A program made the translations under genes and the position numbers. A stretch of DNA of 64,000 nt from Crocinitomicaceae bacterium (GTDB lineage Bacteria > Bacteroidota > Bacteroidia > Flavobacteriales_D > Crocinitomicaceae). The notes beneath the pieces are model-generated. The model had not been told where the DNA came from. It searched no databases and saw nothing but the letters and a program-made list of their open reading frames with translations. Numbering within the stretch: position 1 is the first letter of the stretch; each line of letters begins with the position of its first letter. Shown here piece by piece: positions 28,559 through 50,185 of the stretch. The DNA lies in assembly GCA_029238665.1 (NCBI GenBank), contig JAQWFQ010000002.1, positions 1-64,000 on the forward strand. The letters are read 5' to 3'.

Positions 28559-29893
28559 CTAAAACTCGAACGTTTCCATGAAACTTGTTGTAAAGTCGCC
28601 TAAGTTAAACTGCTCATCTTCCATTAATTTCTGATGGAAGGGAATAGTCGTTTTAACTCCTTCGATAACGTATTCACCCAAAGCTCTTTTCATTTTTAAG
28701 ATTGCTTCTTCACGCGTTTGTGCAACAACAATCAATTTTGAAATCATAGAATCGTAGTTAGGTGGAATTGTATAACCCGCATATACATGGGTATCAATAC
28801 GAATCCCATGTCCTCCTGGAGCATGATAACTTGTGATTTTACCTGGAGAAGGTCTAAAGTTTGCATTCGGATCCTCTGCATTAATTCTACATTGAATTGC
28901 GTGCATTTTTGGATAGTGATTCTCTCCAGACATTTTTTCACCTGCAGCAAGTTTTATTTGCTCCTTAATTAAGTCAAAGTTAATTACCTCTTCTGTAATT
29001 GTGTGCTCAACTTGAATTCGTGTATTCATTTCCATGAAGTAGAAGTCACGGTGCTTATCTACCAAAAACTCAACAGTACCTACACCTTCGTAACTTACTG
29101 CTTTTGTCGCTTTAATCGCTGCAACACCCATTGCCTCTCTTAACTCATCGGTCATAAACGGAGAAGGTGTTTCTTCTACCAATTTTTGGTGACGACGTTG
29201 AATAGAACAATCTCGTTCAGATAAATGGCAGGCATTCCCATATTGGTCACCTGCAATTTGAATTTCAATGTGTCTTGGCTCTTCAATGAATTTCTCCATG
29301 TAAAGACCATTGTTTCCAAAGGCTGCTGCAGATTCAGCACGGGTACCATCCCAAGCTGACTCCATTTCGTCCTCTTTCCATACCACACGCATTCCCTTTC
29401 CACCACCACCGGCAGTTGCTTTAAGAATTACAGGGTATTTAATTTTTTTAGCCGTGATTATCGCATCTTTTAAATCTTTAAGGATACCTACAGAACCTGG
29501 AATACATGGTACTCCCGCTGCAATCATCGTTGCTTTTGCACTGGCCTTATCTCCCATTCCTGCTATTTGCTCTGGAGTTGCACCAATAAATTTGATGTCG
29601 TGCTCTTCACATACTTTCGAGAATTTTTCATTCTCAGAAAGAAAGCCGTAACCTGGGTGAATGGCATCTGCATTTGTGATTTCTGCAGCTGCAATAATAT
29701 TAGGGATTGATAAGTATGACTGAGCACTAGTCGCAGGACCAATACAAACAGCTTCGTCAGCAAATCGAACAGGTAAACTATCCTTATCTGCAGTTGAATA
29801 AACTGCAACCGTTTTAATACCCATTTCTTTACACGTACGAATTACACGCAAAGCGATTTCTCCCCTATTGGCAATCAATATTTTTTTGAACAT
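28559..29893 (-). CDS. accC: Acetyl-CoA carboxylase, biotin carboxylase subunit
   Basis: A 444-residue ATP-grasp enzyme that carboxylates biotin on AccB, the first step of malonyl-CoA formation. Visible landmarks are [20 protein letters not shown] at the N-terminus, the glycine-rich ATP lid [10 protein letters not shown], the catalytic segment [17 protein letters not shown] and the C-terminal biotin-carboxylase domain. The length is typical of the free-standing subunit. accB lies 71 bp upstream and fabH before it, all on one strand. The terminator follows directly. Confidence 0.96.
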
Positions 29894-29964: not shown

Positions 29965-30456
29965 TTATGAAGGATCAACCAAGAATAATGGTTGGTCATA
30001 TTCAACTGGAGTAGCATCGTCAACTAAAACCTTAACAATTTTACCTGTAATTTCCGCTTCAATCTCGTTAAACAATTTCATTGCTTCAATGATACAAACG
30101 GTATCTCCATTCCCAATTGTTTCTCCAACAGATACAAAAGCATCTTTGTCTGGCCCAGCCGAACGATAGAATGTTCCAATCATTGGAGATTTAATTGTTA
30201 AATATTTAGAATCTTCACTTGCAGTGTCTTCCTTAGCTGGAGCAGCAACTGCTGGCGCAGCAGCCACAGGAGCAAGAGCAGCAGCTACAGGAGCTTGAGC
30301 TGGCAAAGCTGCAGGAGCTTGAACGAAAATTTGTTTTTCCTCTTTTTTGTCTGCAGCCTTGATTGTAATTTTAAAATCGTTTTGTTCGATCTCAACTTCA
30401 CTAATCCCTGATTTAGCGACAAATTTGATTAAATCTTGTACCTCTTTAATATTCAT
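29965..30456 (-). CDS. accB: Biotin carboxyl carrier protein of acetyl-CoA carboxylase
   Basis: A 163-residue protein. The N-terminal helix segment (MNIKEVQDLIKFVAKSG) is followed by a mobile Ala/Pro-rich linker (about 48-85) and the biotinyl domain. The biotin-accepting lysine is in IIEAMKLFNEIEAE, and the thumb-containing strand reads MIGTFYRSAGPDKDAF. It carries carboxyl groups between AccC and the carboxyltransferase AccAD, which is not in the window. It lies between fabH (36 bp) and accC. Confidence 0.96.
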   Translation of the reverse strand: MNIKEVQDLIKFVAKSGISEVEIEQNDFKITIKAADKKEEKQIFVQAPAALPAQAPVAAALAPVAAAPAVAAPAKEDTASEDSKYLTIKSPMIGTFYRSAGPDKDAFVSVGETIGNGDTVCIIEAMKLFNEIEAEITGKIVKVLVDDATPVEYDQPLFLVDPS

Positions 30457-30492: not shown

Positions 30493-31482
30493 TTACGAGT
30501 TATACGCCCATTTAATATATACTGCACCCCAAGTGAAACCTCCACCAAATGCAGATAAAATTAACGTATCCCCTTTCTTTAATTGCTTTTCATAATCCCA
30601 CAAACATAAAGGTAAAGTTCCGGCAGTTGTATTCCCGTACTTCTCTATGTTTATCATAACCTTTTCTTTTGGAAGCCCCATGCGGTTTGCTGTAGCATCA
30701 ATAATTCTTAAGTTCGCCTGATGCGGAACAAGCCAATCAACATCGTCACTTGTAAGGTTATTTTTCTCCATAATTTCAGCAGAAACCTCAGCCATGTTTG
30801 TTACTGCAAACTTGAAAACTTGTTTCCCTTCTTGCTTCACAAAATGCATTTTCTTTTCAACGGTTTCAGCTGAAGCTGGATTTGCCGATCCTCCAGCAGG
30901 TTGAACTAAAAATTCTCTACCTGCACCATCAGAACGAAGGATAAAGTCTTGAACTCCTAAACCTTCTTCATTTGGCTCTAACATAATTGCGCCAGCTCCA
31001 TCTCCAAAAATTACACACGTTGTCCTGTCTTCGTAGTCAATGATTGAACTCATTTTATCTACCCCAACAACAATTACCTTCTTATACTTTCCAGTTTCAA
31101 TGAATTGAGCGCCCGTAGAAATTGCATAGATAAACCCTGAACATGCTGCAATTAAATCAAAACCCCAAGCATTACTCATTCCTACCTTGTCACACAATAC
31201 ATTTGCTGTACTAGGGAAAGGGTAGTCAGGTGTTACCGTTGCTAAAATGACCAAGTCAATATCCTCGGCTGCTGTATTTGTTTTCTTAAGTAAAGCCTCA
31301 ACCGCACCTGCGGCCATGTCAGAAGATGCCCCATCTTTCATGATGCGTCTTTCTTTGATGCCTGTTCGAGAGGTAATCCACTCATCGTTCGTATCTACGA
31401 TTTTAGAAAGCTCTTCGTTTGTAAGTACATATTCTGGTAAATACCCTTGTACTCCTGTTATTCCTGCAGTTATTTTACTCAT
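30493..31482 (-). CDS. fabH: 3-oxoacyl-[acyl carrier protein] synthase III (FabH)
   Basis: A 329-residue condensing enzyme that joins acetyl-CoA and malonyl-ACP to start fatty acid chains. The Cys-His-Asn triad is visible as Cys in [12 protein letters not shown], His in [11 protein letters not shown] and Asn in [10 protein letters not shown], with the family-typical [13 protein letters not shown] near the N-terminus. It is the first gene of a fabH-accB-accC unit. A 24-bp dyad at 31531-31554 and a weak TATATTTA box lie about 45-70 bases upstream, and a terminator-like hairpin separates it from rpmF, so independent regulation of initiation is likely. Confidence 0.95.
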
Positions 31483-31523
31483 AGTCTAGTTAATACTCTG
31501 TTCTAATCAATAATAATTCCGAT

Positions 31524-31554
31524 TAAATATAGTGACAATGTATACATTATCACT
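31524..31554 (-). promoter_or_regulatory. Probable operator (24-bp dyad) overlapping the fabH promoter
   Basis: The two plus-strand halves AGTGACAATGTA (31531-31542) and TACATTATCACT (31543-31554) are inverted copies with 11 of 12 positions paired. On the minus strand the dyad runs straight into TATATTTA (31531-31524), a near match to TAnnTTTG, about 42 bases before the fabH ATG. A dimeric repressor such as a TetR- or GntR-type protein bound there would cover the -11 to -35 region. The regulator is not identifiable here. Confidence 0.6.
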
Positions 31555-31590
31555 GAGAAAAGTTCCAAAATCATTCGTCAATCTAGTTCC

Positions 31591-31634
31591 AAAAAACAAA
31601 GAAAGGCCACACAAGAATCACCCTGGTCGCCTTT
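31591..31634 (-). terminator. Terminator-like hairpin after rpmF
   Basis: On the minus strand AAAGG and CCTTT form an outer stem with an inner CCA/TGG, separated by a 3-base bulge, followed by CTTTGTTTTTT. The stem is imperfect, so termination may be partial. Confidence 0.45.
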
Positions 31635-31704
31635 GGGCTTTAAATCCCCATTGAAGAATATTCTAAAACGGAACTTAATCCATTTTTTAGAATCTCAATA
31701 CCAA

Positions 31705-31720
31705 TCTTCATAAATGAAGA
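31705..31720. repeat. Perfect 7-bp dyad just after rpmF
   Basis: TCTTCAT and ATGAAGA are separated by AA, 16 bases after the rpmF stop. A looser 8-bp hairpin (TTCTAAAA/TTTTAGAA, 31661-31692) follows. Neither has a T run. They may be processing or 3'-end stabilising structures, or chance. Confidence 0.35.
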
Positions 31721-31735
31721 ATAACTTACAGCTAA

Positions 31736-31927
31736 TTAAACTGCAACTTCTTTTTCTGCAACTACCTTACCTTTGTAGTACAATTTCCCTTCATGCCAGT
31801 GAGCATGGTGAAATAAGTGTGGTTGTCCAGTTGTTGGGCATGTTGCAATATTCTTTGCCTCAGCCTTCACGTGAGTTCTTCTTTTGTCACGTCTCGTTTT
31901 CGAGATCTTTCGTTTTGGATGTGCCAT
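31736..31927 (-). CDS. rpmF: 50S ribosomal protein L32
   Basis: A 63-residue basic ribosomal protein beginning [19 protein letters not shown], the standard Bacteroidota L32 opening. The zinc-ribbon remnant has one Cys followed by His residues ([15 protein letters not shown]) rather than four Cys, which I take to be normal in this group. It lies 103 bp after the DUF177 gene, its usual partner in bacteria. Three dyads lie between its stop and fabH. Confidence 0.97.
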
Positions 31928-32030
31928 TTTACTTTGTTTACTTTTTTATTTACTTGTTCTCCGTATCCCTACGTCAAACTTAATAATCACTTTTCGCAGT
32001 TTCCTGCATTTATAATAAATGCTTTCGCTT

Positions 32031-49465: not shown

Positions 49466-50185
49466 CTAGTGTGCTTCTACAACTTCTACATTCTCAGCTG
49501 CTGAGAATGTACCGTAATCAGCATCTTGAAACTTCCTAATGTAGTGAACCAATGTCCAAATTTCTTTTTTGTCTAAAATTGGATTATGAGCACCCATCAT
49601 TCCTTTTCCATAATAAATAGAATAGAATAATTGTCCATCACCAAGGTTCGTAAGGTTAGCATAATCAGGAACACCTGCATAAGCACCACTCAACACCATT
49701 GGTCCGTTTCCATCACCCTTAGCCCCATGACAATGTGCGCAATTTGCACTAAATAATTTTTTACCTGTAGCAAAGATCTCTTTTGAATTCTCAGAGTCAA
49801 GTGCCAACGGATTCTTATCTGAAGCAGCTAAGTCATACTCATTGACTTCTGTTAAATCAGCTCCATACATTCCATGCGTAGTTTTCATAGATGTGTGTGC
49901 TTTTCTTGCATAAGGCATCATTAAAGCAACAGTTGCTGAATCAGTTCCATAATATGGGATAGTTCCAGAAGGAGGTGTCATTGCTGACTGCTTCAACTTA
50001 AGTTCTGTGTTTTCTCGTCCTTTTACTTCACCGTAATCAACATAAGGTTCAATTGCTGGAGAACGATACATGTCTGGCATATATTCTAACCCTGAACTAT
50101 CAGGATCTGACGCACATGAGCCAAACATTAGTGTTGTAACTGCTGCTATAGCTATACTTGATATAATTCTAAATTTCATTTTCAT
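49466..50185 (-). CDS. actE: Alternative complex III cytochrome c subunit ActE
   Basis: A 239-residue lipoprotein cytochrome c. The signal ends at lipobox Cys24 (TTLMFGSCASD), and one heme c is bound at C149-A-H-C152-H153 (SANCAHCHGAKGDGNG). A likely Met ligand lies in the GKGMMGAHNP segment. The N-terminal stretch with YMPDMYRSPAIEPY and MTPPSGTIPYY is characteristic of ActE. It is thought to be the exit heme to the terminal oxidase. It lies 20 bp after actD. Confidence 0.93.
   Translation of the reverse strand: MKMKFRIISSIAIAAVTTLMFGSCASDPDSSGLEYMPDMYRSPAIEPYVDYGEVKGRENTELKLKQSAMTPPSGTIPYYGTDSATVALMMPYARKAHTSMKTTHGMYGADLTEVNEYDLAASDKNPLALDSENSKEIFATGKKLFSANCAHCHGAKGDGNGPMVLSGAYAGVPDYANLTNLGDGQLFYSIYYGKGMMGAHNPILDKKEIWTLVHYIRKFQDADYGTFSAAENVEVVEAH

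Follow-up and report, generated by a model that had tools for sequence, protein, structure and literature searches.

A dead plsX between rpmF and fabH in Crocinitomicaceae as a possible carrier of two functional sites, an RNA hairpin and a dyad

The window, by which we mean the whole 64,000-nucleotide stretch of DNA analysed here, contains a set of lipid genes located behind the gene for ribosomal protein L32. The order toward fabH is pdxA, a DUF177 gene, rpmF, a hairpin and a dyad, with accB and accC following fabH; pdxA and the DUF177 gene, like the genes below, were named from their translations. The features of the locus are as follows.

31736-31927, minus strand: rpmF (L32), 63 amino acids, named by reading of the translation
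31640-31711, minus strand: relic of the plsX start, a 23-codon open reading frame (MKIGIEILKNGLSSVLEYSSMGI) whose stop lies 8 nt before the hairpin core
31602-31634, minus strand: RNA hairpin AAAGGCGACC...GTGGCCTTT, a relic of plsX codons, single copy in the genome, matched by the R1 model at E 3.3e-11
31590-31601, minus strand: T-rich tail after the hairpin, 10 T in 12 nt
31531-31554, no strand assigned: 24-bp dyad AGTGACAATGTATACATTATCACT, half-sites AGTGACAATGTA and TACATTATCACT, 11 of 12 pairs
31524-31531, minus strand: -7-like box TATATTTA, seen in the window by an earlier, sequence-only reading
31508-31538, minus strand: candidate promoter, consisting of TTG (31538-31536, within the dyad), 20 bp and TATTATTG (31515-31508), near TAnnTTTG
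30493-31482, minus strand: fabH, 329 amino acids, ATG at 31482, named by reading of the translation
29965-30456, minus strand: accB, downstream of fabH, named by reading of the translation
28559-29893, minus strand: accC, downstream of accB, named by reading of the translation

A tRNA/tmRNA scan found none, and Rfam 15 gave no matches, either across the whole window at gathering score or within 31470-31960 at E up to 1. For comparison, 34 genomes of the genus were used, one per species, with that of the window designated G000; G000, G015 and G016 form the clade of the window, and G001 is a further member. The sequence-only reading had reported a dyad paired at 11 of 12 positions and a hairpin between it and rpmF. 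Both are present, and the hairpin does separate rpmF from fabH. What that reading overlooked is that the gap consists of the remains of plsX and that the hairpin originated inside its frame.

The order DUF177-rpmF-plsX-fabH is that of the rpmF-plsX-fabH operon of Escherichia coli and others. The locus resembles this operon in its gene order and in that its lipid genes follow the gene for a ribosomal protein, but here plsX is dead, and in Crocinitomicaceae a selected hairpin sits inside plsX. In relatives, plsX occupies the gap between rpmF and fabH. Searches with PF02504 were positive in 21 of the 34 genus genomes and negative in 13, including the genome of the window. The segment of that genome before the hairpin nonetheless aligns to intact plsX with a score of 57 (shuffle maximum 39), and the plsX start is recognisable at most decayed loci. 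The segment after the hairpin scores 34 in the clade of the window (shuffle maximum 40), and the 3' part of the gene is no longer recognisable there; G028 retains much of the plsX 3' end (score 108, versus 41 for shuffles). These loci thus have the place of plsX and, in most cases, its recognisable start, and no open frame of plsX length. By these marks, the sequence between rpmF and fabH is what is left of a plsX gene.

The loss of plsX requires six changes on a tree, five of which are forced by well-supported branches, and a single plsX-less clade is rejected (AU p=2e-5); only fabH and the following ~1.2 kb went into the tree, and exchange of this one locus between lineages may lie behind the pattern. 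PlsY, searched for with PF02660, was found in 18 of the 34 genomes. All 13 plsX-less genomes are also without plsY, which is additionally missing in three plsX-bearing genomes (G006, G014 and G025). Replacement of PlsX and PlsY by an E. coli-type GPAT_C (PlsB) was considered and rejected, with none found in any of the 34 genus genomes and the control detected in E. coli. That plsX and plsY are missing together, with no E. coli-type PlsB found, raises the question of how phospholipid synthesis starts in these bacteria.

The hairpin is a more surprising feature than the dyad. In the 21 plsX-bearing genus genomes it lies within the plsX reading frame, where GGCGACC...GTGGCC in the intact genes encodes (I)GDQxxILSGL, about 120 nt into the frame. 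Under codon shuffles that preserve both the protein and the codon pool, the hairpin window had a mean z of -4.44 across 18 genus plsX genes (18 of the 21 plsX-positive genomes, with G011, G013 and G031 omitted as partial, split or near-duplicate). The neighbouring windows that overlap it reached -3.49 and -1.94; among separate windows the best value was -1.38, and the best window in a control scan of fabH from 24 genomes was -1.42. A first codon scan covered 24 loci, part of which had been chosen for a visible hairpin. No such window was present in 16 plsX genes of other genera or families, hand-picked from loci without a visible hairpin (best -1.52).

The pairing itself is also maintained. 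Alignment A1 contains 33 of 36 hairpins (L005, L050 and L086 were omitted as near-identical to others), and 93.4% of its cells are paired, versus at most 55% when columns are slid by 1-3. Six of the 12 stem pairs vary on both sides, and there are 25 double-changed cells, versus a shuffle mean of 7.2, with 0 of 500 shuffles as high; these covariation counts are inflated by sequence kinship, and A1 includes loci from other genera that were chosen since they could be folded. In the strongest covarying pair, position three of a Gln codon (CAA/CAG) is matched with position one of a Leu codon (TTG/CTG), and the synonymous changes on the two sides compensate for one another. The architecture hardly varies, with a G.G mismatch and, in most cases, a bulged base, both at set positions.

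A model built from A1, R1, finds the hairpin in 33 of the 34 genus genomes, including 12 of the 13 without plsX, and misses it only in G001. It is single-copy in 31 of the 33 matching genomes; the other two, G011 and G025, each show a weak additional match. The shuffles, the covariation and this survival indicate that the RNA is selected beyond protein coding, both before and after the death of plsX. An RNA that overlaps a coding frame is usually inseparable from coding constraint. Here, repeated gene loss provides a natural experiment that separates the constraint on the RNA from that on the protein, and the RNA remains. In a sample of 60 genomes from the family, 36 match R1 at E up to 0.05 and 24 do not; part of the Crocinitomicaceae lacks the hairpin. 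At E up to 2.2e-4 there are 28 matches among the 60. One of these is the relic in the window, and the other 27 fall at the position of plsX, in open frames of 297-330 codons. Among the weaker matches, the two that were read, L193 and L194, are terminator-like hairpins located elsewhere.

In the window, the stem is extended to AAAGGC/GCCTTT and is followed by the T-rich tail. Relic hairpins have folding energies between -14 and -16 kcal/mol and are followed by 12 nt that contain 6-10 T, and a consensus terminator scan does not flag the hairpin of the window. Within the genus, the 12 nt past the stem contain a mean of 7.75 T at decayed loci versus 6.0 at intact ones (p=0.001, with rows that are not independent and with L031 dropped, as it has no tail by the pattern used). 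In several other genera, the intact element has no T-tract (GCCTAAA, GCCTTAA), so simple termination cannot be the family-wide role of the hairpin.

The best explanation overall, to which we would assign a probability of roughly 0.5, is that the dead plsX carries two functional sites, the hairpin and the dyad. The neighbours that are kept are rpmF upstream and fabH downstream, so the simplest role for the hairpin is at the boundary between them. It may be that the hairpin, first written in plsX codons, defines the 3' end of the rpmF transcript or protects it. The rpmF message, presumably highly expressed, would be ended there, and the lipid genes downstream would be expressed less. While plsX is alive, read-through and translation would let the downstream genes be made; once it is dead, the hairpin would be retained with a T-richer tail and would become the rpmF terminator. 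The choice between termination and 3'-end protection, like the promoter, the binding protein and the sign of its effect discussed below, is something that we infer.

A more elaborate and tentative proposal, possible at best, is that, in a clade of Crocinitomicaceae, the first ~50 plsX codons encode protein and also act as an RNA switch by which expression of the lipid genes is coupled to that of L32. The switch (start codon, short leader frame and hairpin) would then have been kept by selection after the loss of plsX and plsY, at least five times for plsX. The main rival of the two-site reading is a translation-controlled attenuator in which the first ~40 plsX codons are a leader frame and ribosomes decide whether the hairpin forms and whether transcription proceeds into plsX-fabH-accBC; after plsX loss, a short leader frame and the hairpin would remain. 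Twelve relic loci with the hairpin were read for such a frame (the window, L004, L005, L008, L017, L020, L021, L024, L025, L027, L028 and L196). By raw count, seven of the 12, representing three loss clades, have a frame from the plsX ATG that stops 8-10 nt ahead of the hairpin core, and in three the frame reads through the hairpin; ten have a predicted short frame that ends at or in the hairpin. These stops, the run-through cases and the retention of the plsX start region at decayed loci are as an attenuator would have them. However, the peptide sequence is not conserved (in the clade of the window the frames have 23, 16 and 23 codons), and one frame stops 30 nt short of the hairpin and another 15 nt short. 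On balance, the attenuator is doubtful.

Slightly less credible still is a third role for the hairpin, as a binding or cleavage site for an RNase, a ribosomal protein or another protein, independent of termination. The fixed G.G mismatch and the usual bulge would suit such a site, particularly as they are kept even where there is no T-tract. However, the site would have no second target, as it is nearly always single-copy in its genome; it matches no Rfam family, and its tail becomes T-richer after plsX loss, all of which make this role unlikely.

The dyad lies 48 bp upstream of the fabH ATG (31482, minus strand). Three zero-spacer 12+12 dyads with at least 11 pairs occur in the 64-kb window, so its symmetry alone is unremarkable, and its conservation is the notable part. 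Two of the 33 other genus genomes keep it before fabH, G015 at 23 of 24 positions and G016 at 21 of 24. Conservation in close relatives, by which the sequence-only reading had proposed to check its operator, therefore holds in two of the three nearest genomes. The third, G001, has lost the whole region: its rpmF and fabH are 89 nt apart, and both hairpin and dyad are absent. Across G000, G015 and G016, identical columns make up 21 of 24 in the dyad versus 39 of 84 in the flanks (13 of 36 before it and 26 of 48 after it; Fisher p=2.4e-4, from these three genomes only). Judged by these columns, the dyad is under constraint at this one place before fabH. In G016 its symmetry is lost at further positions, without compensation. 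The consensus terminator scan flagged the dyad as terminator-like, and as RNA the copy in the window has a folding energy of -11.1 kcal/mol; the -7.2 obtained for the G015 segment, which was cut one base short of the dyad end, is not a fair comparison with that value.

It is quite unlikely that the dyad has no function and is either a remnant of plsX in slow decay or a chance symmetry. The presence of three such dyads in 64 kb agrees with chance, and intact plsX has GTGATTATTGGTCAC or a similar sequence nearby, as a remnant would require. However, the post-hairpin segment, as noted, aligns to plsX no better than shuffles do, and the flanks have diverged where the dyad has not. An origin of the dyad in the plsX codons for VIIGHG was rejected on the same clade alignment.

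Copies of the dyad elsewhere are few. At up to three mismatches, four of the 34 genus genomes contain the 24-mer. G000, G015 and G016 have it at fabH, and the copy in G028 (three mismatches) lies at another place; 31 of the 34 have none at fabH. The further copies that the sequence-only reading had proposed to look for in the genome did not appear, with none at up to three mismatches in G000. Matches to a relaxed 20-mer core, also at up to three mismatches, are about as frequent as those to a reversed-pattern control (36 versus 47 in G000, 39 versus 55 in G015, 69 versus 64 in G016). Half-site counts against their control point to no regulon either (G000 15/6, G015 14/2, G016 16/19, G001 8/9, G010 9/13, G030 17/9, G019 11/11). 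As the dyad is single-copy and looser matches are about as frequent as in the control, a global lipid regulator is unsupported; these counts and the conservation support a putative local operator or promoter element of fabH. The wider claim of the sequence-only reading, an operator for a Bacteroidota lipid-synthesis regulator with a regulon, has the conservation before fabH in three genomes in its favour and the single copy, the control counts and the 31 genomes without the dyad at fabH against it, and is improbable.

An upstream TTG and its spacing are part of the flavobacterial promoter. In the candidate listed above the TTG falls within the dyad; G015 has the same arrangement with a 19-bp spacer, and G016 is without any. 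PMC9723704 gives TAnnTTTG as the flavobacterial -7 box. Shuffled sequence yields at least one TTG/-7 match in 25-35% of cases, and the candidate is weak. As for the near-consensus -7 box named by the sequence-only reading, TATATTTA is indeed present at 31531-31524, but it is not retained as such in G015 or G016. A fabH promoter at the dyad is plausible. Under the two-site reading, the barrier at the hairpin and the absence of plsX would leave transcription of fabH-accB-accC in this clade dependent on a local promoter with its -33 region in the dyad, and the dyad would have been gained along with that promoter after plsX died. It is probably bound by a dimeric protein, which would block or aid RNA polymerase at this one promoter. 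The loss of both hairpin and dyad in G001 fits the model, as one case.

Exaptation of terminators as regulators is described in PMC2965389. Like intrinsic terminators and attenuators, the hairpin at the relic loci lies between two genes and has a T-rich tail; it differs from them in that it originated in a coding frame, is kept by covarying synonymous codons and outlives the gene. A terminator or attenuator can, it appears, arise inside a neighbour's gene. With the ribosomal-protein leaders in the accessible portion of PMC7247131, the hairpin shares a lineage-restricted structured RNA adjoining a ribosomal protein gene, but it is located downstream of rpmF and not in a leader, and no L32 motif from Bacteroidota is among those listed in that portion. 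Neither the hairpin nor the dyad is described in the available parts of PMC7247131, PMC8144410, PMC9723704 and PMC2965389. A literature search that covered mainly openly accessible papers found nothing on structured RNA in plsX, on its survival after plsX loss or on the dyad. With this locus, the way in which cells link the synthesis of membrane lipids to that of ribosomes becomes open to testing. FapR, FabR and FadR/DesT operators are short dyads at fatty-acid promoters. The dyad here is similar in this respect but single-copy.

Several minor features accompany these sites. At 49487-49511, a second dyad, TACATTCTCAGCTGCTGAGAATGTA, has the same half-site letters in everted order within a frame that reads as cytochrome c-like in translation; being inside a coding frame, it was taken as a coincidence and rejected as a related site. 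Around the old plsX start, at 31700-31716, the window has a small inverted repeat, TCTTCATTTATGAAGA, a similar form of which is present in most of the relic and intact loci read. In G007 and G017 (L024 and L027), an identical block of ~36 bp, CTCAAAAAAAGTGATATTCACACTCGGAAATCGATT, lies between the hairpin and fabH in surroundings that have diverged, and is perhaps another control site of fabH newly fixed after plsX loss.
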